Origin: Devosia sp.
GTDB taxonomy: Bacteria > Pseudomonadota > Alphaproteobacteria > Rhizobiales > Devosiaceae
Direction of reading: 5' to 3'
Assembly (NCBI RefSeq): GCF_030689745.1
Contig: NZ_JAUYGL010000113.1
Coordinates: 23,657-87,656, forward strand
DNA length: 64,000 nt
Below, piece by piece: positions 49,868 to 64,000 of the stretch (the stretch's first letter is position 1; the number at the start of each line of letters is the position of its first letter). Made by a program: the position numbers and the translations under genes. Below the pieces are notes generated by a model that was not told the origin of the DNA, searched no databases, and saw only the letters and a list, made by a program, of their open reading frames with translations.

Positions 49868-50820
49868 TTGCTGAAGCTATAGGCTTCGATGTCGCGAATG
49901 CCTTCGGGGGCCGTGGGATCCACGCGGAAGTCGACCGTGTAGACCTTCTTCTTTTGCGGGTTCAGCGGGGTGAACTTGACCACGCCGGCCAGCGCCAGCT
50001 TGGCCAGGTAGGACAGACCGCTGACATTCTGGTCCAGCTTGTGCAGGCCCATCTTGCGCAAGATGCCATTGGCATAGTTGACGGCGTAATGGCGGCGCAG
50101 CCCGTCCGTCCAGTGTTCGGTCGTGAAGCTGACATTGAGCATGTTTTCATTGACCACGCGGTGCGGCCCGTTGAGCGGCCAGTGCGCCATCTTGCCCGCT
50201 TCGAGCATGTGCACTTCGGCGTAATCATCAAACCAGGCTTCAAACGGCATGTCGGTTTCGCGGGCCTGCCCCAGGATCAGGTTCTCCAGTGCGGGCTGGG
50301 ACAGGAAGGGCGGGGTGTTCGGGTAAATATAGACCTTCTTGGTGCCGCGCACCTGCCACAGACACTGGCCGGGCACATCGGCGTGATACTTCACCGAAAC
50401 ATTGGGCGACGAGATCAGCAGGGTCATATTGCGCTTGTAGCTGATGAAGCCGGGCACGCGCGCCTCGAACTCGTCATAGAGTGCATTGAGCATCTCGCCA
50501 TAGGCGGGATCGGTCCGGCCCGGTCGGGTCAGGTTGACCCAGATATTGCCGGTGCGCACAATCTCGAGCACCTCGGCGCCGGAAAGGTCCTTGATCTCGC
50601 CTTCGCGGCGCTTGGGCGGATTGCCCGGAGTCTTCTGCGAGTAATTGACGTGATAGTCCTCGCGTGGCGCGGCATCAATCAGGCGCGCCAGTGCCTCGTC
50701 GGTGAACAGCGGTGAGTTGGCCAGGCTGTGACTGAGGGCCAGAGTGTGCTTGCCAAACAGCGCGGGAAAATGCGGCTGCCAGTCGGTAATGATCTGATCG
50801 GTACGCATGGGCATGTTCAT
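49864..50820 (-). CDS. Cupin/JmjC-like 2-oxoglutarate oxygenase family protein
   Basis: This 318-residue protein contains a JmjC-type double-stranded beta-helix. The putative Fe(II) ligands are His and Asp of VKYHADVPGQCLWQVRGTKK and the later His of WPLNGPHRVVNENMLNVSF. The KVYIYPNTPP segment follows, as in JmjC-like cupins. Substrates of such bacterial proteins are usually unknown; hydroxylation of a protein or lipid is a reasonable guess. A GGAG ribosome-binding site precedes the ATG at 50820. It is translationally coupled to the downstream GNAT/FemAB-like gene. Confidence 0.75.
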   Translation of the reverse strand: MNMPMRTDQIITDWQPHFPALFGKHTLALSHSLANSPLFTDEALARLIDAAPREDYHVNYSQKTPGNPPKRREGEIKDLSGAEVLEIVRTGNIWVNLTRPGRTDPAYGEMLNALYDEFEARVPGFISYKRNMTLLISSPNVSVKYHADVPGQCLWQVRGTKKVYIYPNTPPFLSQPALENLILGQARETDMPFEAWFDDYAEVHMLEAGKMAHWPLNGPHRVVNENMLNVSFTTEHWTDGLRRHYAVNYANGILRKMGLHKLDQNVSGLSYLAKLALAGVVKFTPLNPQKKKVYTVDFRVDPTAPEGIRDIEAYSFSK

Positions 50821-51090
50821 GGGCGGCTCCAGGATGTGCAAGGCGGGCGCCGTTGCCTGTCCGGGCCGCAGTTAGCGCAAAACAGCGGCTCTGGCGCGCT
50901 CGGATTGGTGCGCTAGTTAAATACCCATGAAAGAGGAAACCGTTAACAGGCGTGGTCAAATTCTTACATTGGCGGCGTGAAAACCGCCCGCCCGGAATGG
51001 CCTGCCGTCTGCTGGCCAGCGGGCCACTGGCAATTTTTGGCGGCTTGCGCCATATAGGGATATTCCTTCCAATCACGGGCGAGGCAGACT

Positions 51091-51966
51091 GTGAGCGGCG
51101 TGCCGTTTCTCAAGATGAACGGGCTGGGCAACCAGATCATCGTAGTCGATATGCGCGGTCGCGCGGATCGGGTGACGCCGGCTGCGGCCATCGCCATCAA
51201 TGGCACCGAGGGGACCAGGTTCGACCAGATCATGGCCATTCATGATCCGCGCACACCGGGCACCGCCAATTACATCGAGATCATCAATTCCGATGGCAGC
51301 CGCGCCCAGGCCTGCGGCAATGGCATGCGCTGCGTGGTGCAGGTGCTGACTGCCGAGCAGGGCGCGCAGCGCTTTACCTTCGAGACGGTGGCGGGACTGT
51401 TGTTCGGCGAGGCGCAGGCCGACGGCATGATCACTGTCGACATGGGCACACCCAAGCTGGCCTGGTACGATATTCCGCTGGCCGAAGAATTTGCCGATAC
51501 GCGCAAGATCGAGCTGCAGATCGGGCCCATCGATGCGCCGGTGCTGCATTCGCCTTCGGTGGCCTCGATGGGCAATCCGCATGCCACCTTCTGGGTGGCC
51601 GACGATGTGTGGAGCTACGCGCTGGAGCGGTTTGGGCCGATGCTGGAGAACCATCCCATTTTTCCCGAGCGCGCCAATATTTCGCTGGCCCAGGTGGTGG
51701 CGCCGGACAAGATCATCCTGCGCACCTGGGAGCGGGGCGCCGGGCTGACCGAGGCCTGCGGCACGGCGGCCTGTGCGGCGGTGGTCAATGGCGCGCGCAC
51801 ACGGCGTACCGCCCGGGCTGCTACCGTGACCGTGCCGGGCGGCGATCTGCATGTCGCGTGGCGCGACGATGACCATGTGGTGCTGACCGGCCCGGCCGAA
51901 CGGGAATGGACCGGCACGCTCGATCCGGCCACGGGCGCCTGGGTGCGCGACGAGGTTGCGGCCTGA
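51091..51966 (+). CDS. dapF: Diaminopimelate epimerase
   Basis: DapF converts LL- to meso-diaminopimelate for lysine and peptidoglycan. The 291-residue protein has [15 protein letters not shown], the first catalytic cysteine in [22 protein letters not shown], and the second in [18 protein letters not shown]. The start is GTG with GAGG upstream. It overlaps mtaB by one base in TGATG, and begins a dapF-mtaB-ftsY-yciB series typical of Rhizobiales. The 270 bases upstream, divergent to the cupin gene, must contain its promoter. Confidence 0.97.
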
Positions 51967-53231
51967 TGGCGGTGGAGACACTGACATTTGGCTGCCGGTT
52001 GAATGCCTATGAGGCTGAGGTGATGAAGGTCGAGGCCGAAAAGGCCGGGCTCGACAATGCCATCATCATCAATACCTGCGCGGTGACGGCCGAGGCCGTG
52101 CGCCAGGCCAGGCAGGCGGTGCGCAAGGCACGGCGCGACAATCCGGCGGCCCGTATCATTGTTACCGGCTGCGCCGCCCAGACCGAGGCGCGCAGCTTTG
52201 GCGAGATGGCCGAGGTCGATCTGGTGATCGGCAATCATGACAAGATGCAGGCGGCCAGCTACGCACCCATGGTGTTCGGCACCCCGCTCAACGACAAGGT
52301 GCAGGTCAACGACATCATGAGCGTGCGGGAAACCGCGGGCCATCTGATCGAGGGCATGGATGGACGCACGCGCGCCTTTGTCCAGGTGCAGAATGGCTGC
52401 GATCATCGCTGTACCTTCTGCATCATTCCCTTTGGCCGCGGCCCGTCGCGCTCGGTGCCGATGGGGTTGGTGGTCGAGCAGGTCAAGAAGCTGGTCGGCA
52501 ATGGCTATGGCGAGGTGGTGCTCACCGGGGTCGATATTACCTCCTATGGCCCCGACCTACCGGGCGCGCCGACGCTGGGCAAGCTGACCCAGTCGATCCT
52601 GCGCCACGTCCCCGATCTGCCACGGCTGCGGATTTCCTCGATCGACAGCATTGAAGCCGATGAGGCGCTCTATGACGCGGTGGCCAGCGAGCACCGGCTG
52701 ATGCCGCATATGCATTTGTCACTGCAATCGGGCGATGACATGATTCTCAAGCGCATGAAGCGCCGGCATAGCCGCGCCGATGCCTTGGCCATCATGGCCA
52801 AGCTGCGGGCCCTGCGGCCCGATATGGTGTTTGGCGCCGACATCATTGCCGGCTTTCCCACCGAGGACGCGGCGATGTTTGCCAATACGCTGGCCATTGT
52901 CAGCGAGGCCGATCTGACGCATCTGCATGTTTTTCCCTATTCGCCGCGCCAGGGCACACCCGCCGCGCGCATGCCGCAGGTCAGCCAGACGGTCGCCAGG
53001 GACCGTGCGAGGCAGTTGCGGGCCGTCGGCGCGGCGCAGTTCCGGGCGCTCTGCGCCAGCCGCGTTGGCCAGATCGAACAGGTGCTGATAGAGCATGACG
53101 GGCTGGGCCGCAGCGAGCAGTTCGTGCCGGTCAGCGTGCCGGGGGCGCAGCCGGGAACACTGCTGGCGGTGCGGGTTACCGGTGTGGCCAGGGATGGTCT
53201 GGTCGGCGAAGCGGTGCGTGACGCTGCCTGA
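51966..53231 (+). CDS. mtaB: tRNA t6A37 methylthiotransferase MtaB
   Basis: MtaB is a radical-SAM enzyme that makes ms2t6A37 in tRNAs. The 421-residue protein has an N-terminal UPF0004 domain (GCRLNAYEAEVMKVEAEKAG, NTCAVTAEAVRQARQAVRKA, ITGCAAQTEA-like VTGCAAQTEAR) with three cluster cysteines, and the SAM cluster in NGCDHRCTFCIIPFGRG. A C-terminal region after about 360 corresponds to TRAM-like sequence. The start is the ATG overlapping the dapF stop; upstream reading into dapF is not conserved. Confidence 0.94.
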   Translation: MAVETLTFGCRLNAYEAEVMKVEAEKAGLDNAIIINTCAVTAEAVRQARQAVRKARRDNPAARIIVTGCAAQTEARSFGEMAEVDLVIGNHDKMQAASYAPMVFGTPLNDKVQVNDIMSVRETAGHLIEGMDGRTRAFVQVQNGCDHRCTFCIIPFGRGPSRSVPMGLVVEQVKKLVGNGYGEVVLTGVDITSYGPDLPGAPTLGKLTQSILRHVPDLPRLRISSIDSIEADEALYDAVASEHRLMPHMHLSLQSGDDMILKRMKRRHSRADALAIMAKLRALRPDMVFGADIIAGFPTEDAAMFANTLAIVSEADLTHLHVFPYSPRQGTPAARMPQVSQTVARDRARQLRAVGAAQFRALCASRVGQIEQVLIEHDGLGRSEQFVPVSVPGAQPGTLLAVRVTGVARDGLVGEAVRDAA

Positions 53232-53249
53232 AAGTTAAGAAAGTCCACG

Positions 53250-54491
53250 ATGACCGACAAGAAGCCGGGATTTTTCAAGCGTCTGTTTGGTAGCGATGCG
53301 CCAGCGCCTGTTGAGCCAGCAGCGCCAGCCGACGATACCATTGCGCCCGCCGTGCCGGCGGTGACGCCGGATGCGGTCGCGCCGGAGCCGGCACCCGAGC
53401 CAGTACCCGAACCCAGTGCAACGCCTGAGCCGGATCCTGTCGCCGCTCCCGACCATGTGCCGCTGCCGGGCCCGCCGGAAACGACGCCTGACTATGTCGA
53501 AGCGATTGAAGAGAAGGCGGCGCAGGCGGCGAGTGTCGCCGCCATCGAGACACCAGCGGATTCCCCGGCAGAGGCAAAGGGCTGGTTCGCGCGGCTGGCT
53601 TCGGGGCTGAAGCGGTCGTCCGATCAGCTGACGGGCTCGATCACCTCGGTGTTCACCAAGCGCAAGCTCGACAATGCGACGCTCGAAGAGCTTGAGGACG
53701 TGCTGATCCAGGCCGATCTGGGCATTGAAACCGCAACCACCATCACGGACACGCTGCGGCGCGACCGGTTCGACCGCGATGTGTCGGGCGAAGATGTGCG
53801 CGCGGTGCTGGCCGCCGAAGTCGAAAAAGTGCTGGGCCCGGTGGCCCGGCCGCTGGAGATCGACGCCAGCCAGAAGCCCTTCATCATCCTGATGATCGGG
53901 GTCAATGGCTCGGGCAAGACCACGACAATCGGCAAGCTGGCGCAGAAATTTGCCAATGAGGGCAAATCGGTGATGCTGGCGGCAGGCGATACCTTCCGGG
54001 CGGCAGCGATCGAACAATTGCAGATCTGGGGCGACCGCACCGGCGCGACCGTGGTGTCACGGCCAGCCGGCTCCGATGCGTCGGGGCTGGCCTTTGACGC
54101 GGTGACCCAGGCGCGTGCCGAAGCGCGGGACGTGCTGATCATCGACACGGCCGGCCGCTTGCAGAACCGCGACGAGCTGATGAATGAGCTGGAAAAGGTC
54201 ATTCGCGTCATCAAGAAGGTCGACCCGGGCGCGCCCCATGCCACGCTGCTGACGCTGGACGCCACCACCGGGCAGAATGCGCTCAAGCAGGTGGAGATCT
54301 TTGGCCAGCGCGCCGGGGTCACCGGGCTGGTGATGACCAAGCTCGACGGCACGGCACGCGGCGGCATTCTGGTGGCAATCGCCAGCAAGTTTGGCCTGCC
54401 GGTACACTTTATCGGCGTCGGCGAAGGGGTGGGTGACCTCGAGGCTTTTACCGCCGCCGAGTTTGCCCAGGCCATTGCCGGGCGCGACTAG
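53250..54491 (+). CDS. ftsY: Signal recognition particle receptor FtsY
   Basis: FtsY receives Ffh-ribosome complexes at the inner membrane. Residues 1-100 are an acidic, Ala/Pro-rich A domain with repeated PEP-like units; the N domain is about 110-200; the G domain has GVNGSGKTTTIGKLA at about 217-231, DTFRAAAIEQL, IDTAGRLQNRDELMN and TKLDGTARGG. The start MTDKKPGFFKRLFG has the amphipathic membrane-binding helix typical of the family. It lies 18 bases after mtaB. Confidence 0.97.
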   Translation: MTDKKPGFFKRLFGSDAPAPVEPAAPADDTIAPAVPAVTPDAVAPEPAPEPVPEPSATPEPDPVAAPDHVPLPGPPETTPDYVEAIEEKAAQAASVAAIETPADSPAEAKGWFARLASGLKRSSDQLTGSITSVFTKRKLDNATLEELEDVLIQADLGIETATTITDTLRRDRFDRDVSGEDVRAVLAAEVEKVLGPVARPLEIDASQKPFIILMIGVNGSGKTTTIGKLAQKFANEGKSVMLAAGDTFRAAAIEQLQIWGDRTGATVVSRPAGSDASGLAFDAVTQARAEARDVLIIDTAGRLQNRDELMNELEKVIRVIKKVDPGAPHATLLTLDATTGQNALKQVEIFGQRAGVTGLVMTKLDGTARGGILVAIASKFGLPVHFIGVGEGVGDLEAFTAAEFAQAIAGRD

Positions 54492-54576
54492 CCCTAATCT
54501 GACCACGCTTGGTGCCTAGCACACCTTGCATGCCGGGGCCGCTACCCTCACATTGCCCCGACGCTGAACCGAGAAA

Positions 54577-55215
54577 ATGTCCATGTCCGAAAAAGCCAAG
54601 ACCGAGCACGCTGAACCCGAGGTCAATTGGGATGAACTGCGTCCGCAGCTGATCAAGATGGCGCTCGAGCTTGGGCCCCTGGTGGTGTTCTTCATCGTCA
54701 ATGCGCGGGTTGATATTTTCGCTGCGACCGCCTGGTTCATGGGCGCGATGGTGATTTCGCTGGTCTTGAGCAAGGCGATCCTGAAAAAGATCGCCGTGAT
54801 GCCGCTCGTGACCGGCGCCGTGGTGCTGGTGTTTGGCGGGCTGACACTGTGGCTGCAGGACGACACCTTCATCAAGGTCAAGCCGACCATCACCAATGGG
54901 CTGTTTGCCGGCGTGCTGCTGGGCGGGCTGCTGTTCAAGCACTCGCTGCTGAAATATGTGTTTGGCGATGTCTACAAGCTCAAGCCCGAGGGCTGGAGCA
55001 AGCTGACCCTGAACTGGGGCCTGTTCTTTGTGGCGCTGGCCATCATCAATGAAGTGCTGTGGCGCAATTTCTCGACCGATTTCTGGGTGACGTTCAAGGT
55101 GTGGGGCGTGATGCCGCTGACCATAGCCTTTTCGATCAGTCAGCTGTCGCTGCTCAACAAATACGCGCCCCCCGATGAGCCGCACCACGTGCCGCCGATC
55201 GTCGTCGATAGCTGA
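54577..55215 (+). CDS. yciB: Inner-membrane septation protein YciB (IspZ)
   Basis: YciB is an inner-membrane protein that links cell-envelope synthesis to division. The 212-residue protein has five or six hydrophobic helices after a charged N-terminus, with [40 protein letters not shown] and [20 protein letters not shown] as family blocks. It follows ftsY by 85 bases. The yciB position next to ftsY is common in alphaproteobacteria. Confidence 0.94.
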
Positions 55216-55238
55216 GGCCTGTCAGCCACCGGCAGCAA

Positions 55239-55643
55239 TCAGCCGAACAGGCCGATGACCGCGCCGGATATCAGCAGGACGCCGAGCAGATAGCCGCCAT
55301 CAATGAAGGTGCGCATCCAGGGGGCGCCCTCATAGCGATGGTTGAGCACCATGGATGTCAGCACAAAGCCCAGCCACATGGTGGCGCCAACGATCAGGCC
55401 ATTGGTCAGATTGGTTGCGCCGGTCACCGCCGGCGTCAGCAGGGCAATGAAATAGGCCATGACGAAGATGCACAGCACCGACCACAGATAGGGCGCGACG
55501 TCAGAGCGGTCGATATCGTCCATCTCCTTGCCGATGGAAGCGACCCACTGCCTGGCCAGCACCATGTACCAGGCGGCACCAAAGGCCCAGGCGACGACAG
55601 TGGCCAGAATGACGGCCAGCCAGTTTACCTCGAGATATGACAT
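55239..55643 (-). CDS. DUF1761 membrane protein
   Basis: This 134-residue protein has four predicted helices and a DUF1761 pattern: NWLAVILATVVAWAFGAAWY near the start, GATMWLGFVLTSMVLNHRYEG in the middle and a glycine-rich final helix. Function is unknown. It converges with yciB, and is on the same strand as the EVE-yciI-gpsA-tsaD group. Confidence 0.85.
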   Translation of the reverse strand: MSYLEVNWLAVILATVVAWAFGAAWYMVLARQWVASIGKEMDDIDRSDVAPYLWSVLCIFVMAYFIALLTPAVTGATNLTNGLIVGATMWLGFVLTSMVLNHRYEGAPWMRTFIDGGYLLGVLLISGAVIGLFG

Positions 55644-55711
55644 CGATTTTCTCCCCCAGAGTGAACGCTGCCGGCAAGCCTAGCGCTGGCTTGTCCGCTT
55701 GGGTAGGGGGC

Positions 55712-56146
55712 TCAGAGCCCGCCCATCTTGCACAGCAGCGCCCATTCTTGGGGGCTGACCTTGGAGACCGAGAGGCGCGAGAGCTTGACCAGTTCAAGCT
55801 CGGCCAGCTCGGGCGTCGCCTTGATCGTGGCCAGGGTGACCGGCCTGGGCAGCGGCTTGATGGCGGCGACGTCGACACAGTCCCACACCACCTCGCCCTT
55901 GGCGTTGCGCTCGCCGGTGCTGTCGGGGTGGGCGGCGGCGACCACCTGCATGATGCCGACGATCTCCTTACCGATATTGGAGTGATAGAAAAAGGCTTCA
56001 TCGCCCAGGGCCATGGCGCGCATATTGTTGCGCGCCGCGTAATTGCGCACGCCGGTCCATTCCTCGGGCTCGTTGCGGGCGGTCTTGGCCTGCAGATCGG
56101 CAAAGGAAAACACGTCCGGCTCGGACTTCATCAGCCAATAGGCCAT
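55712..56146 (-). CDS. EVE domain protein
   Basis: The 144-residue protein is a lone EVE (PUA-like) domain: MAYWLMKSEPDVFSFADLQ, TGVRNYAARNNMRAMALGDEA, FFYHSNIGKEIVGIMQVV. EVE domains bind modified bases in nucleic acids; the free-standing form in Proteobacteria has been linked to tRNA or DNA modification reading. It begins 4 bases after the yciI stop, so it is in the tsaD-gpsA-yciI-EVE transcript. Confidence 0.92.
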   Translation of the reverse strand: MAYWLMKSEPDVFSFADLQAKTARNEPEEWTGVRNYAARNNMRAMALGDEAFFYHSNIGKEIVGIMQVVAAAHPDSTGERNAKGEVVWDCVDVAAIKPLPRPVTLATIKATPELAELELVKLSRLSVSKVSPQEWALLCKMGGL

Positions 56147-56150
56147 GGCT

Positions 56151-56444
56151 TTAGTCCTTCGTGACCATGTGGTTGATGGCCAAGTTCCAGTGCTTGACCT
56201 CCCAGGAGGCAAATACCCCTTCGGTCACAAAGGGATCGGCGGCAAACAGGGCCTTGGCCTGTTCCAGGCTGTCGGCTTCAAGCACCATGACCGAGCCTTC
56301 GGCCTGGTCGTTCTCGTCCCAAAGCGCGCCGGCCAGCCGGAGCTTTTCCCCCAGGGAGGCGAGGTGTTCGAGATGGGTGGGACGGACCGCAAGGCGGTGT
56401 TCGAGGCCGCCTGGCTTGTCCTTGCCGATAAATACAAACAGCAT
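56151..56444 (-). CDS. YciI family protein
   Basis: This 97-residue protein has a ferredoxin-like YCII fold: LFVFIGKDKPGGLEHRLAVR, HLASLGEKLRLAGAL, and GSVMVLEADSLEQAKALFAA. Members may have lyase or dehydrochlorinase-type activity, with a His-Asp pair; the exact role is unknown. It lies 7 bases downstream of gpsA and 4 bases before the EVE gene, an arrangement common in Rhizobiales. Confidence 0.9.
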   Translation of the reverse strand: MLFVFIGKDKPGGLEHRLAVRPTHLEHLASLGEKLRLAGALWDENDQAEGSVMVLEADSLEQAKALFAADPFVTEGVFASWEVKHWNLAINHMVTKD

Positions 56445-56451
56445 GTTTTCT

Positions 56452-57438
56452 CTAGTCCTCGCGTTTGAGCGGACGGGCCATCAGGCCCGCAACCACGGTA
56501 GCTATATTGGCTTGGCCGCTGAGCACAGCGTGCACGGCGGCAATCAGGGGGGCATCGACATGAAGGCTATTGGCCAGCGCGTCGGCGACCGGGGTGGTGG
56601 CGACACCCTCGGCCAGCTTGGCGCCCGACGCAATGATCTGTTCGACCGATTGACCGCGGCCCAGGGCCATGCCGAACTGGTAATTGCGCGACTGCACCGA
56701 GGTGCAGGTCAGCGTCAGATCGCCCAGGCCGGCCAGCCCGGTCAGCGTGGTGGCCGAACCGCCCATGGCCTTGACCATGCGGGCCATTTCGGCAAAAGCG
56801 CGGGCGATCAGGGCGGAGCGGGCCGAGGCGCCGAGGCCGGCGCCCTCAATGGCGCCGCAGGCCAGGGCATAGACGTTCTTCAGCGCCCCGGCGACTTCCA
56901 CGCCAATGCGGTCGTCGCTGGCATAGGGGCGAAAGCTGGGACCGGCCAGCGCGGCAGCCAGTTCGGAGGTATGATCGGCGTCATCGCCGGCCAGGGTGAC
57001 GGCGGTGGGGCGACCGGCAGCAACGTCGGCAGCAAAGCTGGGCCCGGACAGGACATAGGGAATGGCGTCGGGCGCCATATCGATCAGGATTTCGCTCTGG
57101 CGGTCCAGCGTACCGGTCTCCAGCCCCTTGGCGGAGAGGATAACCGGCCGGTCCGCCAGCAATGCCGGATCAAGCGCACCCAGCGCGGCGCGGGTCGATT
57201 GGGCGGGCACGGCCAGAATGATGATATCGGCTGGCGCTGGCTGGGTGCTGGCCGTGATCGCCTCGTGCAGGATCTGGCCACCGAGATAGCGCTGATTGGT
57301 GTGGGCTATATTGATCTCGTCGGCCTGCGCCGCATCGCGGACCACAAGGCGCACCGTGCGGCCCGCCATGGCCGCAGCCTGCGCCAGCGCCGTGCCCCAG
57401 GCGCCGCCGCCAATCACCAGAACCGAATCAAGCGACAT
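56452..57438 (-). CDS. gpsA: Glycerol-3-phosphate dehydrogenase [NAD(P)+]
   Basis: GpsA reduces dihydroxyacetone phosphate to glycerol-3-phosphate for phospholipid synthesis. The 328-residue protein has the Rossmann motif [56 protein letters not shown], the catalytic-lysine region [17 protein letters not shown], and [20 protein letters not shown]. Its start lies inside the tsaD 3' end (11-base overlap), so it is translated downstream of tsaD. Confidence 0.97.
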
Positions 57439-58504
57439 CGGGCACCTTCATGTCGGGCAGGTCGAGCGGCCAGCGTGGCCGGGCGGCGACATCAAGCGGG
57501 TCACGGACCCCCAGGGCAAAGCGCTCGGCGCCAGCCCAGGCGACCATGGCGCCATTGTCGGTGCACAGGGCAATGGGCGGCACAATCAGCGTGGCCCCCG
57601 CCGTTTCGCAGACATTGGCCAGGGCGGCGGCGATGCTGCGATTGGCGGCAACGCCGCCGGCCACGACCAGGACTGGCCTGGTCCCAGGCAATTCGGCCTT
57701 GAACCGCTCCAGTGCCTGGCTGGCCCGCACCGAAACAATTTCGGCGACAGCAGCCTGAAAGCTGGCGGCGATATCGGCGACGTCCTGATCGCTGAGCGGG
57801 GCCAGCGCCTCGGCCTGCAGCCGCACGGCGGTCTTGAGACCGGAAAAGGAAAAATCCAGCCGGGCCTCGCGCAATAGCGGGCGCGGGAATTTGAACCGCT
57901 TGGGGTCGCCTTGCACGGCAATGGCTTCCACGGCCGGTCCGCCGGGATGGCCCAGACTGAGCAGCTTGGCCACCTTGTCAAAGGCTTCGCCCAGCGCATC
58001 GTCAATGGTGGTGCCCCAGCGCTGGTAATCGCCGACGCCGCGCACCAGCACGAACTGGCTATGGCCGCCCGAAACCAGCAGCAGCAGATAGGGGAACGCC
58101 GCCTTGTCGGTCATGCGCGCGGTCAGGGCGTGCGCTTCGAGATGGTTGATGGCCAGCAGGGGCTTGTCCAGGGCGGCGGCCAGCGCCTTGGCCGTGGTCA
58201 GACCCACCAGCACGCCGCCGACCAGTCCGGGGCCGGCGGTGACCGCGATGGCATCGACATCGGCCAGGGTGAGTTCGGCCTCGCGGCAGGCCTGGGCAAT
58301 GATATGGTCGAGATAGGTGACATGGGCGCGCGCCGCCAGTTCGGGCACCACGCCGCCGAATGCCGCATGTTCATCGAGCTGACTGCGGACCACATTGGAC
58401 CGAATCGTTGAATTGCCTGATTGGTCTCGTACAACGATGGCTGCGGCGGTTTCGTCGCAGCTGGTCTCGATGCCAAGGATAATGGCTGGCGCTTGCCCGG
58501 TCAC
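57428..58504 (-). CDS. tsaD: tRNA N6-adenosine threonylcarbamoyltransferase TsaD
   Basis: TsaD makes t6A37 in tRNAs together with TsaB, TsaC and TsaE. The 358-residue protein has [16 protein letters not shown] at the N-terminus, the metal-binding [16 protein letters not shown] (HxExH), [14 protein letters not shown], and the ATP loop [20 protein letters not shown]. The start is taken at GTG 58504, giving [15 protein letters not shown]; further upstream the frame overlaps hemC antisense. It is divergent from hemC. Confidence 0.96.
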
Positions 58505-58553
58505 GATGAACTGGTTACTCCCTGAAGGGTCTCTCTGCCTACTATAGGACCAA

Positions 58554-59501
58554 ATGACTTTGCAATCTCCCCAAGCCTTTGCCCGGATCGGAACGCGCGG
58601 CAGCCCGCTGGCGCTGACCCAGGCGCGCCTGGTGCGCAGCCTGCTGGCCCAGACCCATGGTGTCAGTGAAGACGACATCACCATTGAGGTGCTCTCGACC
58701 GGCGGCGACCGCAGTCAGGCCAGCAATGCCAGCCTGAGCGATATTGGTGGCAAGGGCCTGTTCACCAAGGAAATCGACGAGGCCATGCTGGCCGGGCGCA
58801 TCGATATCGGCGTGCATTCGAGCAAGGATGTGGCGACCCGGCTGCCGGACGGCCTGGCGCTGGTGGCGTTTCTCGAGCGCGAGGATGTGCGCGACGCCTT
58901 CCTGTCGGTGAAGGTGCAGAGCCTTGATCATCTGGCCGAGCGCGCCAAATTCGGCACCTCATCGATTCGGCGGGCGGCGCAGGTACTGCGCCAGCGCCCG
59001 GACCTGCAGATCGTGCCGTTTCGCGGCAATGTCGGTACCCGCCTGCAAAAACTGATCGAGGGGGTGGCTGACGCCACGCTGCTGGCCATGGCCGGGCTCA
59101 ATCGGCTGGGCGAGGGCCATCGCGCCACCGGCCAGATGGATCCGGAGATTTTTCTGCCCGCGCCGGCGCAGGGCGCCATCGGGCTGGCGGTGCGCAGCGA
59201 CGACGCGCGGATGGCCGATCTGGTGGCGGCGCTCGACCATGCCCCGACCCATCGGGCCATTGCGGCCGAGCGGGCCATGCTGGCGGTGCTCGATGGTTCC
59301 TGCCGCACCCCGGTGGGGGCGCTGACCCGGCTCGACAATGGTACGCTGACCCTCAAGGGACAGATTCTCAGCCTTGATGGCCAGACCGCCTTTGACAGCA
59401 CTGCGAGCGGGACGGATCCGCTGGCGCTGGGCCGCGGGGTGGGCGAGGATCTGCTGGCGCAGGCCGGGACGGATTTTCTGGCGCAATGGGCCGCCACATG
59501 A
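58554..59501 (+). CDS. hemC: Hydroxymethylbilane synthase (porphobilinogen deaminase)
   Basis: HemC polymerises four porphobilinogens into hydroxymethylbilane. The 315-residue protein has [20 protein letters not shown], the [20 protein letters not shown] block, [18 protein letters not shown], and the dipyrromethane-cofactor cysteine C250 in [12 protein letters not shown]. It overlaps hemD by 4 bases as ATGA. The 49 bases upstream are shared with the divergent tsaD. Confidence 0.97.
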
Positions 59502-60229
59502 CGCGGATGCTGGTGACCCGGCCGGAGCCGGATGCGCAATCCTCGCTGGCGCGGCTGCTGGCCCTCGATATCGACGCGGTGGCGGTGCCGGTGATGGAGC
59601 GCGTGAGTCTGGATGTCAGCCTGCCGCCTGCCGATGGCTTTGCCGCCGTGGTGCTGACCAGCGCCAATGCGGTGCGCACGCTGGTGGAGCGCAATGTCGT
59701 CGGCGACTATGCGCATCTGCCGGTGCTGGCGGTGGGTGACCGTACGGCGCGCGACGCCGAAATGGCCGGCTTTGCCCATGTCAGCAGTGCAGCCGGGGCG
59801 TTTGCCGATCTGGTCAATGCCATCAGCCTGTCCGGCCTCAAGGGGCCGCTGTTCTACCCCACCGGCAAGCATCAGAGCGCCGATCTGGCCAAGGCCGTGG
59901 CGCCGCTGGGCGTGATGGTAGCCACGGCGAAAATCTACGACATGGTCGCCATTGCCGCGCTGCCCAGAGCCATTCTGGCCGAGCTGGGCGATGGCCGCAT
60001 CAATGCCGTGCTGGTCTATTCACGCCGCACCGCCGAAATCTTCGCCGATCTGGCGCAAAGTCTGAATCGTACCCAGCGGCAGGCGCTGGGCATGCTATGC
60101 ATGAGTGAAGCGGTGGCCGAGCCGCTGCTGGGCGCCCATTTCAACCGCATCAGCCTGGCCGATCGCCCGGACGAAGAGGCAATGATGGCCATGGCGCTGG
60201 GTTTTGCCCGCGCGCAAACTGGGCCATAG
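59498..60229 (+). CDS. hemD: Uroporphyrinogen-III synthase
   Basis: HemD cyclises hydroxymethylbilane to uroporphyrinogen III. The 243-residue protein shows the weakly conserved two-lobe pattern of the family, with MLVTRPEPDAQSSLARL at the start, VVLTSANAVRTLVERNV, LAVGDRTARDAEMAGFAHV, and a later LVYSRRTAEIFADL. Assignment rests on these blocks and on the position between hemC and the mitofilin gene. The start is the ATG that overlaps the hemC stop. Confidence 0.9.
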   Translation: MTRMLVTRPEPDAQSSLARLLALDIDAVAVPVMERVSLDVSLPPADGFAAVVLTSANAVRTLVERNVVGDYAHLPVLAVGDRTARDAEMAGFAHVSSAAGAFADLVNAISLSGLKGPLFYPTGKHQSADLAKAVAPLGVMVATAKIYDMVAIAALPRAILAELGDGRINAVLVYSRRTAEIFADLAQSLNRTQRQALGMLCMSEAVAEPLLGAHFNRISLADRPDEEAMMAMALGFARAQTGP

Positions 60230-60257
60230 TCGATTTTGAACATGAGGATTCCCGGAT

Positions 60258-61589
60258 ATGGCCGATAGCAAGGGCAGTGATCCCAAGCCGAGCGAGACCA
60301 AGGCGAACCAGACCAAGCCTGGTGCAGTCAAGCCGCCCGTGCTCGATCTGACGGCGCGTCCGGTTGGCGCCGAGGCCAGCAAGGCCGATGCCGGCACGGC
60401 CGGGGCCGGGACAACCGCCAGCGCCGGCAAGCCTGTGGACGCGCCAGCCTCAGGCGCCGGGGCCACTGACAAGCCCAGGCCAGCCGACAAGCCGCCAGAA
60501 AAGCCTTCAGAAAAACCCTCAGAGAAGCCCTCAGACAAGCCAAGGCCGGTGCCGGCCGCGCCGGCATCATCGGGCTTCGGTTTTGGCGCGGCGCTGCTGG
60601 GTGGCCTGCTTGGGCTCGGGGCGGCCTATGGGCTGGCCTATGCCGGCTGGTGGCCGGCGCCGGCAGCGCCAGTGGCCGTGGCCGATCCGCGGCTGGCCGA
60701 GTTCGGCAAAGCCATTCCCGAGCTGGAAACCGTGACCCGGACCACGCAATCGGAACTGGCCACCCTCAATCAGCGCATCGGGGCGCTGGAGCAGGCCGAG
60801 CCTGCCGCCACCCCGAGTGCTGCCGCACCGGTTGATCTGGTGGGGATCGAAGGCGACATTGCGGCGCTGGCCGCCCGGGTCGACACACTGGCGGCAGCAC
60901 CTCCGCCGGTGGCCGATACGGACGCGCTGGACCGGCTGCGCGGCGATTTTGCCACGCTGGGCACACGGATTGATGAACTGGCGGCCCGGCTGGGCAGTGC
61001 CGAAGCCAATCTGCGCACGCTCGACAGCAGCGTCAGCCAGACCAGCGCTGCCCTGGCGTCGCAGCCCAGCGATATCGGCGCTGTTCTGCAATTGCCCCTG
61101 ATCCTGTCGGGCTTTGAAACCGCCTTTGCCACGGGCCGCCCCTATGAGACCGAGCTGGCGGCGCTGCGCGCCGCCGCGCCCAAGGCCGATATTCCCACCC
61201 TGATCGCCAACAGGGCGCCGCAGGGCCTGACCCGTCCCGACGTCATTGCCCGGCAGTTTGACGCCGTGCTGCCGGCCATTCTGGCCGGCCGGCCGGTCGA
61301 TCCCGATGCCCAGTGGCAGGATGGTGCGCTCGACTGGTTCGCCGGAGCCATCGCGCTGCGGCCGACAGGAGAAATCGCGGGCGATACGCCCCAGGCCATT
61401 GCCTCACGGCTGATCGGCGCGGTGGAGCGGCGTGATTTCGCCAGTGCCCAGACCCTGCTCAAAAGCCTGCCCGCGCCCATGCAGGCGGCGGCCGGTGCGG
61501 TGCCGGCGCTGTTTGCCGAGCAGGCGGCGGGAGAGGCTTTTCTGCAAGAGCTGCGTGATGCGGCCCTCAGTGGCGAGGTCGCCCGATGA
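60258..61589 (+). CDS. Mitofilin/Mic60-like inner-membrane protein
   Basis: The 443-residue protein has a disordered, Ala/Pro/Lys-rich N-terminus (1-105), one transmembrane helix (about 108-130), a coiled-coil region (about 140-280), and a C-terminal helical domain (about 290-443) of mitofilin type. Alphaproteobacterial Mic60 is encoded next to hem genes and shapes inner membranes or links inner and outer membrane. Sequence and place fit that. The N-terminal part carries an EKPS repeat (60490-60541). It overlaps hemY by 4 bases. Confidence 0.82.
   Translation: MADSKGSDPKPSETKANQTKPGAVKPPVLDLTARPVGAEASKADAGTAGAGTTASAGKPVDAPASGAGATDKPRPADKPPEKPSEKPSEKPSDKPRPVPAAPASSGFGFGAALLGGLLGLGAAYGLAYAGWWPAPAAPVAVADPRLAEFGKAIPELETVTRTTQSELATLNQRIGALEQAEPAATPSAAAPVDLVGIEGDIAALAARVDTLAAAPPPVADTDALDRLRGDFATLGTRIDELAARLGSAEANLRTLDSSVSQTSAALASQPSDIGAVLQLPLILSGFETAFATGRPYETELAALRAAAPKADIPTLIANRAPQGLTRPDVIARQFDAVLPAILAGRPVDPDAQWQDGALDWFAGAIALRPTGEIAGDTPQAIASRLIGAVERRDFASAQTLLKSLPAPMQAAAGAVPALFAEQAAGEAFLQELRDAALSGEVAR
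60490..60541 (+). repeat. Short tandem repeat encoding E-K-P-S units
   Basis: Four imperfect 12-base units encode PEKPSEKPSEKPSDKP in the disordered N-terminal part of the mitofilin-like protein. In-frame unit loss or gain would change tail length without breaking the gene. Confidence 0.8.
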
Positions 61590-62962
61590 TCCGTCTGGCG
61601 TCCTGGATCGTGGGCAGTCTGGTCATCGCGGCGCTGGCCGCCTGGATGATTTCGCTGCCCGGCACGCTGACGCTGGAGGTGGCGGGCTATCGCATGCAGC
61701 CGCGGCTGGGCGTGGCGGTGTTCATGTTCATGGTGATCGCCATTGTGGTGATTTTCATCTGGGCCATTGTCCGGCGGATCATCTCGGCGCCGCGCGCCAT
61801 GGCCCGGCGCCGGCGTGAACGGCGTCGCGAGCAGGGTGTCGAGGCGCTTGGTGCGGCGATGATTGCGCTGCAGGCCGGTGATCCGGGCCGGGCGCGGTCG
61901 CTGGCGCGTGACGCACAGGCGCGTCTGCCGTCCAATGCCGCCGCCCGATTGCTCGAGGCGCGGGCCGATCTGGCACTGGGCGACATGGCTGCAGCGCGCG
62001 AACACTACCGGGCGCTGATTGCCAGCGACCAGACCGCGCTGGCCGCGCTGACCGGACTTTATGACCAGGCGCGGGCCCAGCAGCGGCCGCAGGCGGCGCT
62101 GACCTTTGCCCGCAAGGCCCTCAATCTGGCGCCCGACAGTGCCTGGGCGGCTGAAGCGGTGTTCAACGATCTGGCGCAGCGCGGGCAATGGGCCGAGGCG
62201 GTGGCGATGGTCAATGCCGAACAGGCCGGCAGCCGCGAGCAGCGCGCCCGCAAGCGGCGCCGGCAGGCGGTGATCGAGACTGCCCGGGCCCGCGAGAGCG
62301 AAACCAGCGAGCCCCTGTCGGCGCTGGAACATGCCTTGACCGCGCTCCGGCTGCTGCCCGATTTTGTGCCCGCAGCGCTGATTGCGGCGCGCATCCACAT
62401 CAATCGGGGCGAGACGCGCAAGGCGATGAGCCTGCTGCGCCGGATCTGGCGCGCCACCGGGCATCCCGACATTGCCGCGCTCTATGGCCATGCCCAGCCG
62501 GGCGCTTCGGCCGTCGATCGGCTCAAGCGCATGGGCGAGATCATCGAGATCCCGCCGCCACACCGGGCGGCCGGCATGGCCCTGGCCCGCGCGGCCATTG
62601 ATGCCTATGACTGGGTGCTGGCGCGCCAGGCGCTGGCGCCGTTTGCCGGCCCCGATGCGACCCAGGGCGTGGCCAGCCTGATGGCCGAGATCGAAGAAGG
62701 CCAGCATGGCGATCAGGGCCGGGCTCGCGAATGGCTGGCGCGCGCCGTGCGGGCGCCGCGCGATCCGGCCTGGACGGCCGATGGCATGGTGAGTGACGAA
62801 TGGGAGCCGGTGTCCCCGGTCACCGGTCGGCTGGACGCCTTTGAGTGGAAGGTACCAATGATCGCCACCATGACGGCGACAACGCCGCCCGATGGCGGGC
62901 TGCTGGCACAATCATCCCCCCAGCCCGCCTTGCCTCTTGCACCCGCCCCCAACCCAACGTAA
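61586..62962 (+). CDS. hemY: Heme biosynthesis-associated TPR protein HemY
   Basis: The 458-residue protein has two N-terminal transmembrane helices (about 3-25 and 40-63), the second followed by a basic RRxRER stretch, and then a tetratricopeptide-repeat region to the C-terminus (GLYDQARAQQRPQAALTFAR, AARIHINRGETRKAMSLLRR). This is the HemY_N type encoded downstream of hemCD; it is not the HemY/HemG protoporphyrinogen oxidase. Its role is unclear; it may tether heme enzymes at the membrane. It ends 13 bases before the tRNA gene. Confidence 0.9.
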   Translation: MIRLASWIVGSLVIAALAAWMISLPGTLTLEVAGYRMQPRLGVAVFMFMVIAIVVIFIWAIVRRIISAPRAMARRRRERRREQGVEALGAAMIALQAGDPGRARSLARDAQARLPSNAAARLLEARADLALGDMAAAREHYRALIASDQTALAALTGLYDQARAQQRPQAALTFARKALNLAPDSAWAAEAVFNDLAQRGQWAEAVAMVNAEQAGSREQRARKRRRQAVIETARARESETSEPLSALEHALTALRLLPDFVPAALIAARIHINRGETRKAMSLLRRIWRATGHPDIAALYGHAQPGASAVDRLKRMGEIIEIPPPHRAAGMALARAAIDAYDWVLARQALAPFAGPDATQGVASLMAEIEEGQHGDQGRAREWLARAVRAPRDPAWTADGMVSDEWEPVSPVTGRLDAFEWKVPMIATMTATTPPDGGLLAQSSPQPALPLAPAPNPT

Positions 62963-62975
62963 AAGCTCACCCGTT

Positions 62976-63048
62976 GCCGCATTAGCTCAGTTGGTAGAGC
63001 ACATCATTCGTAATGATGGGGTCCTCGGTTCAATCCCGAGCTCCGGCT
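62976..63048 (+). tRNA. tRNA-Thr (anticodon CGT), mismatched acceptor stem
   Basis: The 73-base cloverleaf has a GCTC/GAGC D-stem, a CATCA/TGATG anticodon stem with CGT at 63009-63011, and a CTCGG/CCGAG T-stem with loop TTCAATC. The acceptor 5' strand is GCCGCAT and the 3' strand is CTCCGGC. These give only five of seven pairs; positions 5:68 and 7:66 are C:C and T:C. The 3' strand would pair perfectly with GCCGGAG and the 5' strand with ATGCGGC. There is no encoded CCA. The two halves look as if they come from different tRNA genes. See findings. Confidence 0.9.
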
Positions 63049-63062
63049 CAGAAATATCTTGG

Positions 63063-63068
63063 TATACT
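63063..63068 (+). promoter_or_regulatory. Possible -10 element just before the release-factor gene
   Basis: TATACT ends 6 bases before the ATG at 63075. If used, transcription would begin at or near the start codon and give a leaderless message. No good -35 or ribosome-binding site is visible. Confidence 0.3.
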
Positions 63069-63074
63069 CGTTTG

Positions 63075-63962
63075 ATGGATGAGCCAAAAGGAGACAGTAG
63101 TCGGCGCTTAAAAGAATTGGAGGCGCTAATGGCGTCGGCTGACTTTTGGAATGATAAAAATGAGGCCCAGCGACTCGTGCAAGAGTATCAGGCGCTGAAA
63201 GAGGGCGGAGGAGGCGACCCGCACGATGCGGGTAGCGCGACGCTCGCCATCCTCGCGGGCGCTGGCGGAGACGACGCGGAAGACTTTGCGCGGATGCTAC
63301 GGCGCATGTACGAAGGATATGCCGCGCAAAAAGGGTGGGGGGTGCGCGAGCTCCACGCGCACGAAAGCGAGCACGGCGGGTACCGGAATGTCTTGCTTGA
63401 AATTACCGGCAAGGGCGCCTACGGGCGCCTGCGGCACGAAGCGGGCGTGCACCGGCTCGTGCGGCAGTCGCCCTTTAACGCGAACGCCAAGCGCCAAACG
63501 TCGTTTGCGCTCGTCGAGGTGCTGCCGACGCTTGTCGCCAGCGACAAGGTCGAACTGAAACCAGACGAGCTCGATATCCAGTTCGCCAAGTCCGGCGGAG
63601 CAGGGGGCCAGAATGTGAACAAGCGCGAGACGGCGGTGCGCATTGTGCACACGCCGACCAATCTCTCGGTGCATGTCTCAAGCGAGCGCAGCCAGCTCGC
63701 GAACCGCGAGAAGGCGCTCGAGCTCCTCGCGGCGAAGATTTTCGCGGCTGAAGAGGCGAAGCGGGAAGCGGAGGCGAAGGGGCGCTCGATAGCCGCCACG
63801 ACCGCAAACGAGTGGGGGAGCCAGATCCGCTCCTACGTGCTCCACCCCTACAAGATGGTGAAAGACCACCGCACTGGTCACGAATCGTCGAATCCAGAAA
63901 AGGTTCTGGAAGGTTATTTAGATGATTTTATAAACGCTGTCGCAGCGAACGGGGATATATAG
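63075..63962 (+). CDS. prfB: Short peptide chain release factor 2, probably foreign to this genome
   Basis: This 295-residue class I release factor has the RF2 anticodon SPF (132-134, in VRQSPFNANAKRQTSF) and the catalytic GGQ (177-179, in KSGGAGGQNVNKRETAVRI), so it should release at UAA and UGA. Bacterial RF2 is usually about 365 residues; here most of domain 1 is missing, and AGAGGDDAEDFARMLRRMY begins the core. I do not see the internal UGA frameshift site found in many prfB genes. Sequence style and length resemble Patescibacteria/CPR RF2 rather than Alphaproteobacteria. Codons such as TTA, CTA and ATA, rare elsewhere in the window, occur near both ends. It follows the chimeric tRNA by 26 bases. 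Confidence 0.9.
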   Translation: MDEPKGDSSRRLKELEALMASADFWNDKNEAQRLVQEYQALKEGGGGDPHDAGSATLAILAGAGGDDAEDFARMLRRMYEGYAAQKGWGVRELHAHESEHGGYRNVLLEITGKGAYGRLRHEAGVHRLVRQSPFNANAKRQTSFALVEVLPTLVASDKVELKPDELDIQFAKSGGAGGQNVNKRETAVRIVHTPTNLSVHVSSERSQLANREKALELLAAKIFAAEEAKREAEAKGRSIAATTANEWGSQIRSYVLHPYKMVKDHRTGHESSNPEKVLEGYLDDFINAVAANGDI

Positions 63963-64000
63963 CCAAGTTTAGAAAAAGTGCTAATGTGTCACCGGGTCAC

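Follow-up and report, generated by a model that had tools for sequence, protein, structure and literature searches.

Mismatched acceptor strands in a tRNA-Thr(CGU) gene point to a misassembly between phyla in a Devosia contig

A tRNA gene with a damaged-looking acceptor stem

What does a tRNA gene reveal when its two acceptor strands do not fit each other: a decaying gene, an exchange inside a cell, or a join made during assembly? The question is raised by a gene near the end of contig C156 of a Devosia sp. assembly, within a window of 64,000 nucleotides (the whole stretch of DNA that was analysed). ARAGORN called a single tRNA in the window, a tRNA-Thr(CGT) at 62976-63049. Its acceptor strands, GCCGCAT and CTCCGGC, form five of seven pairs and leave C5:C68 (C:C) and T7:C66 (T:C) unpaired, exactly the damage that the original prediction had described. 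The D, anticodon and T stems, which had been predicted to be perfect, are paired as judged by eye. The features of the locus are listed in Table 1.

To place this defect, acceptor pairs were scored for each tRNA at the best of five 3′-end registers. The assembly has 47 tRNA matches in total, of which 31 distinct tRNAs entered the count and 16 or more fell outside it. Among these 31, seven pairs were found in 28, six in two and five in one; the window tRNA-Thr is thus the only one with five or fewer. Among tRNA entries from relatives, 29 of 30 have seven pairs and the remaining one has six, so that none is as low as five. In 142 tRNA entries from Patescibacteria and other loci, seven pairs occur in 128, six in 13 and five in one. 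The last of these (L090:2513-2584) is a tRNA-Thr(CGT) in a public MAG, located about 0.4 kb upstream of a prfB match, and might represent another chimera or a gene in decay.

Table 1. Features at the right end of the window (positions are those of the window)
Feature	Coordinates	Strand	Remarks
hemY-type TPR protein gene	61586..62962	+	weak TIGR00540 match (55 bits; cut-off 142)
Putatively chimeric tRNA-Thr(CGU)	62976..63048	+	acceptor pairing 5/7
Host part of tRNA	62976..63017	+	positions 1-42; host-type at 5, 7, 28 and 42; identical to C222
Switch zone	62983..63023	+	positions 8-48; would narrow to 63018-63023 if the donor has G28-C42 like G072
Patescibacteria part of tRNA	63024..63048	+	T arm, 3′ acceptor strand and discriminator T; 14/14 informative positions as in G072
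prfB (RF2), Patescibacteria type	63075..63962	+	TIGR00020 334 bits, under the cut-off of 370
Final bases of contig C156	63963..64000	.	C156 is 87,656 long; the window is its positions 23657-87656

Two parental loci and their neighbours

The left neighbour of the window tRNA-Thr(CGU) is hemY. In the same genus, hemY precedes this tRNA in 17 of the 17 loci that have it (L035-L049, L051 and L052), and it also lies upstream, as judged by DNA, in a second copy in genome G003 (L065), which brings the count to 18 of 18 same-genus copies. The locus for G017 (L057; genome 62% complete) holds a tRNA-Ala and was left out of the hemY count. An RF2 match was absent from the same-genus tRNA-Thr loci checked, usually over about 1.5 kb on each side. 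hemY is the native left neighbour of tRNA-Thr(CGU) in this genus. In one congener (G008, L041, contig C10, about 354214-354262), a 5′ fragment of tRNA-Thr(CGU) lies between hemY and the intact tRNA; it ends near the anticodon stem, and roughly 90-100 nt separate it from the intact gene. This fragment hints at a past rearrangement at tRNA-Thr(CGU), and so at the occurrence of such events in the genus.

The original prediction had called for two tRNA-Thr(CGU) parents, one ending in ATGCGGC and one starting with GCCGGAG, and both types were found. The first lies in the same assembly, where contig C222 carries an intact tRNA-Thr(CGU) at 475-550 with a complementary acceptor (GCCGCAT/ATGCGGC). The window tRNA does not differ from it anywhere in positions 1-48. 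The start of C222 (L063:1-522) is about 82-83% identical to window positions 62499-63023, which comprise the end of hemY and the start of the tRNA. For the remainder of the first 6 kb of C222, the matches found elsewhere in the assembly are all short and weak, and window positions 57428-62960 match nothing in the assembly other than themselves and C222:1-459. Since the left flanks are only 82-83% identical, C222 is probably not simply the continuation of the molecule represented by C156. Because C222 opens with a second version of the hemY-tRNA-Thr locus at about 83% identity, sequences from two related strains or species are probably mixed in the assembly at this point.

To the right of the tRNA the picture is different in kind. 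Contig C156 stops 952 nt past the tRNA, at the window end, and prfB, with a complete reading frame, occupies 888 of these nucleotides. The encoded RF2 is 85% identical to that of L074, 81% to L071 and 77% to L083, and up to 87% identical among the family genomes looked at, which are Patescibacteria relatives. Its identity to the product of the genome's own prfB (L151, contig C68) is 43%. The best titled relatives are Patescibacteria MAGs labelled Nomurabacteria, Kaiserbacteria, Paceibacterota and Parcubacteria. Composition also differs: GC content drops from 65.8% in window positions 50,001-62,900 to 59.6% in the tail beyond the tRNA, and GC3 is 0.73 in the RF2 gene vs 0.81-0.82 in hemC and hemY. 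The protein has 295 aa, and its TIGR00020 alignment begins only at position 112. In several relatives the match extends to the first residue of the window RF2, so that a short N terminus could be characteristic of the lineage rather than a truncation. Patescibacteria-like RF2s also occur at L106 and L120 (56% and 54% identity), in records labelled as Bacteriovorax and Burkholderiales MAGs; these are probable cases of mis-binning in public records.

In the best RF2 loci (L071-L089), a tRNA-Thr(CGU) lies upstream on the same strand in 18 of 19, at a distance of 31-2,267 nt from the RF2 match; in the exception, L084, it is on the opposite strand. In Kaiserbacteria-like Patescibacteria (L071-L089 and L194-L206), tRNA-Thr(CGU) is found upstream of prfB, sometimes just tens of nucleotides away, and it is often preceded by a tRNA-Thr(GGU). 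The family set of L071 was made up of 105 genomes, including those of the Kaiserbacteria-labelled L072 and L077, with four candidates scored per genome. Six of these 105 genomes gave a single alignment that starts at query base 1 and covers both tRNA and prfB; in six others such an alignment starts at base 8. For loci with an RF2 match from residue 1, the gap between the two genes is 24-30 nt in L194, L195, L197 and L198, loci chosen partly because the match spanned both genes, compared with 27 nt in the window. Wider gaps occur in L204, L076 and L083 (51-59 nt), and other loci exceed even these.

The second predicted acceptor, GCCGGAG/CTCCGGC, is present in the tRNA-Thr(CGU) upstream of prfB in L071, L077, L083, L192, L195 and L196. 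The closest tRNA is that of L196 in G072, a genome belonging to the family of a Patescibacteria MAG; this tRNA matches that of the window at 69 of 73 positions. The 31 consecutive nucleotides at the 3′ end, positions 43-73, are identical in the two. In G072 itself, 424 nt separate tRNA-Thr(CGU) from prfB. In G099, where the gap is 30 nt, 23 nt of the 3′ part match and the acceptor is different. No relative examined combines the G072-type 3′ sequence with a short, window-like gap to prfB. The actual donor was not found among the 105 family genomes, whose members are up to 80% identical in DNA across long segments, and an exact 30-nt pattern for the donor contig had 0 hits in viral_contigs. The host is an alphaproteobacterium by its gene content. 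The titles of the records of the RF2 relatives, together with the divergence from the prfB of the host (43% identity), place the second parent in another phylum, Patescibacteria.

Position of the switch

We compared the 73 positions of the window tRNA with the tRNAs of C222 and G072. All three agree at 55 positions; at four the window has the host nucleotide only (5, 7, 28 and 42), at 14 the G072 nucleotide only (49-52, 57, 59, 60, 62-66, 68 and 73), and none is left unexplained. Thus, along the 18 differences between C222 and G072, the first four are host-type and the last 14 are G072-type. Because no position fits neither parent, one switch accounts for the tRNA, a pattern that holds relative to C222 and G072 as proxies for the parents.

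The exact switch point depends on the donor. A donor that resembles G072 at positions 28 and 42, which pair in the anticodon stem, would place the switch after position 42 and before position 49; with A28-T42 in the donor, the switch could fall anywhere in positions 8-48. The original prediction had placed the switch at about 62983-63030, and it falls within positions 8-48, that is 62983-63023. Exact runs shared by the G072 and host tRNAs are at most 20 nt long, and after position 42 the shared run is just 6 nt (GGGGTC). Across the tRNAs of relatives compared, the exact overlap with the host tRNA is at most 24 nt. Six nucleotides are few for an assembler that joins by k-mers, and we therefore predict A28-T42 in the true donor, which would then share 41 nt with the host.

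Assembly error or exchange in a cell

Each side of the junction matches a different organism up to the shared tRNA sequence. The comparisons show tRNA genes of both parental types, the native neighbourhood of each and one clean switch from the first type to the second, and the contig ends shortly afterwards. A tRNA core common to two genomes in one sample is a possible crossover site for a k-mer assembler. Host sequence would run from the left through hemY into the host tRNA-Thr(CGU) gene, and in the conserved core the assembly path would cross to the tRNA-Thr(CGU) of a Kaiserbacteria-like Patescibacteria cell from the same sample. The path would then continue through the Patescibacteria prfB, the contig halting about 1 kb further on. 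The two mismatches would be the host 5′ acceptor strand lying opposite a Patescibacteria 3′ strand. We infer, with a probability of about 0.96, that contig C156 is an inter-phylum misassembly formed via the conserved tRNA core, and that assembly software rather than a cell made the join. An assembly chimera had been the favoured reading from the start, and it gains support from the two parental types, the native flanks and the single switch.

Seven of the assembly's 47 tRNA matches are located no more than 250 nt from the start of a contig vs 0.67 expected (binomial p 4e-6, independence assumed), which hints that the assembly breaks at tRNAs. According to a passage of PMC8172020, de Bruijn graphs may hold paths that match no real genome, and part of PMC8201837 counts chimeric contigs among the errors of MAGs. 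The latter text also describes misassemblies as relatively rare, which we counted against a misassembly here. On the same side stand the short exact runs shared by the host and G072 tRNAs, the missing donor sequence, the lack of a relative with both donor features, the divergent left flank of C222 and the tRNA fragment in G008. Like the chimeric contigs of k-mer (de Bruijn) metagenome assembly, C156 joins unrelated genomes at a short shared stretch. It differs from the accounts of chimeras in PMC8172020 and PMC8201837, whose passages considered here do not name a tRNA gene as the join point, and also in that the acceptor stem itself reveals the join.

Could the junction have formed in a cell? 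Illegitimate or short-homology recombination in the tRNA-Thr core might have put a Patescibacteria prfB behind the host tRNA and damaged the latter. tRNA genes are usual integration sites, a second tRNA-Thr(CGU) with a paired acceptor exists in the assembly (C222), so that a damaged copy might be tolerated, and the congener G008 carries the 5′ fragment described above. Nevertheless, we consider such an exchange very improbable. Each flank is the native neighbour of its own tRNA gene, as a path switch at shared sequence predicts; nearly all of the tail is taken up by a prfB although the host has its own, making it redundant; and a join in the cell would need cross-phylum recombination within about 40 nt that spoils the tRNA. 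With a second parent from a different phylum, recombination is a far less probable origin of the join than an error of assembly. The particular claim that tRNA-Thr(CGU) genes of two phyla recombined, and that the host thereby acquired a release-factor gene from Patescibacteria along with a hybrid tRNA, is extremely unlikely; if true, the join would be a striking cross-phylum event.

Integration of an element at the tRNA was also judged unlikely. The locus shares with integrative elements at tRNA genes a boundary inside the gene. Elements that target tRNAs normally rebuild the tRNA 3′ end, whereas here that end is not restored and the two acceptor mismatches persist. A scan of the window for the tRNA 3′ end, with up to three mismatches allowed, gave a single occurrence, and no direct repeat of at least 18 nt (12-nt seed) was listed in 61500-64000. 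The tail is moreover a native Patescibacteria tRNA-Thr-prfB arrangement with a housekeeping gene, unlike that of an integrative element. The idea that the gene is a genuine tRNA-Thr(CGU) in decay, its acceptor mismatches having arisen by mutation, deserves almost no credence. A few tRNAs elsewhere do have five or six acceptor pairs in the same count, but the 14 changes in positions 49-73 jointly reproduce the Patescibacteria gene exactly, within the 31 nt shared with G072, and the gene downstream of the tRNA is foreign as well. Mutation of one tRNA was rejected on account of this clean mosaic.

In conclusion, the junction inside the tRNA gene is most likely an artefact and not a real feature of the genome. 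To the original prediction the analysis adds the partner, whose identity as a Patescibacteria bacterium is supported. The case is useful mainly as a clean example of chimera detection without reads. It also suggests a cheap way to flag chimeric contigs when no reads are at hand, namely by tRNA genes whose acceptor strands fail to pair although the inner stems are intact. For the Devosia assembly, a misassembly reading removes a false tRNA and a false signal of horizontal transfer, namely a Patescibacteria prfB on a host contig.
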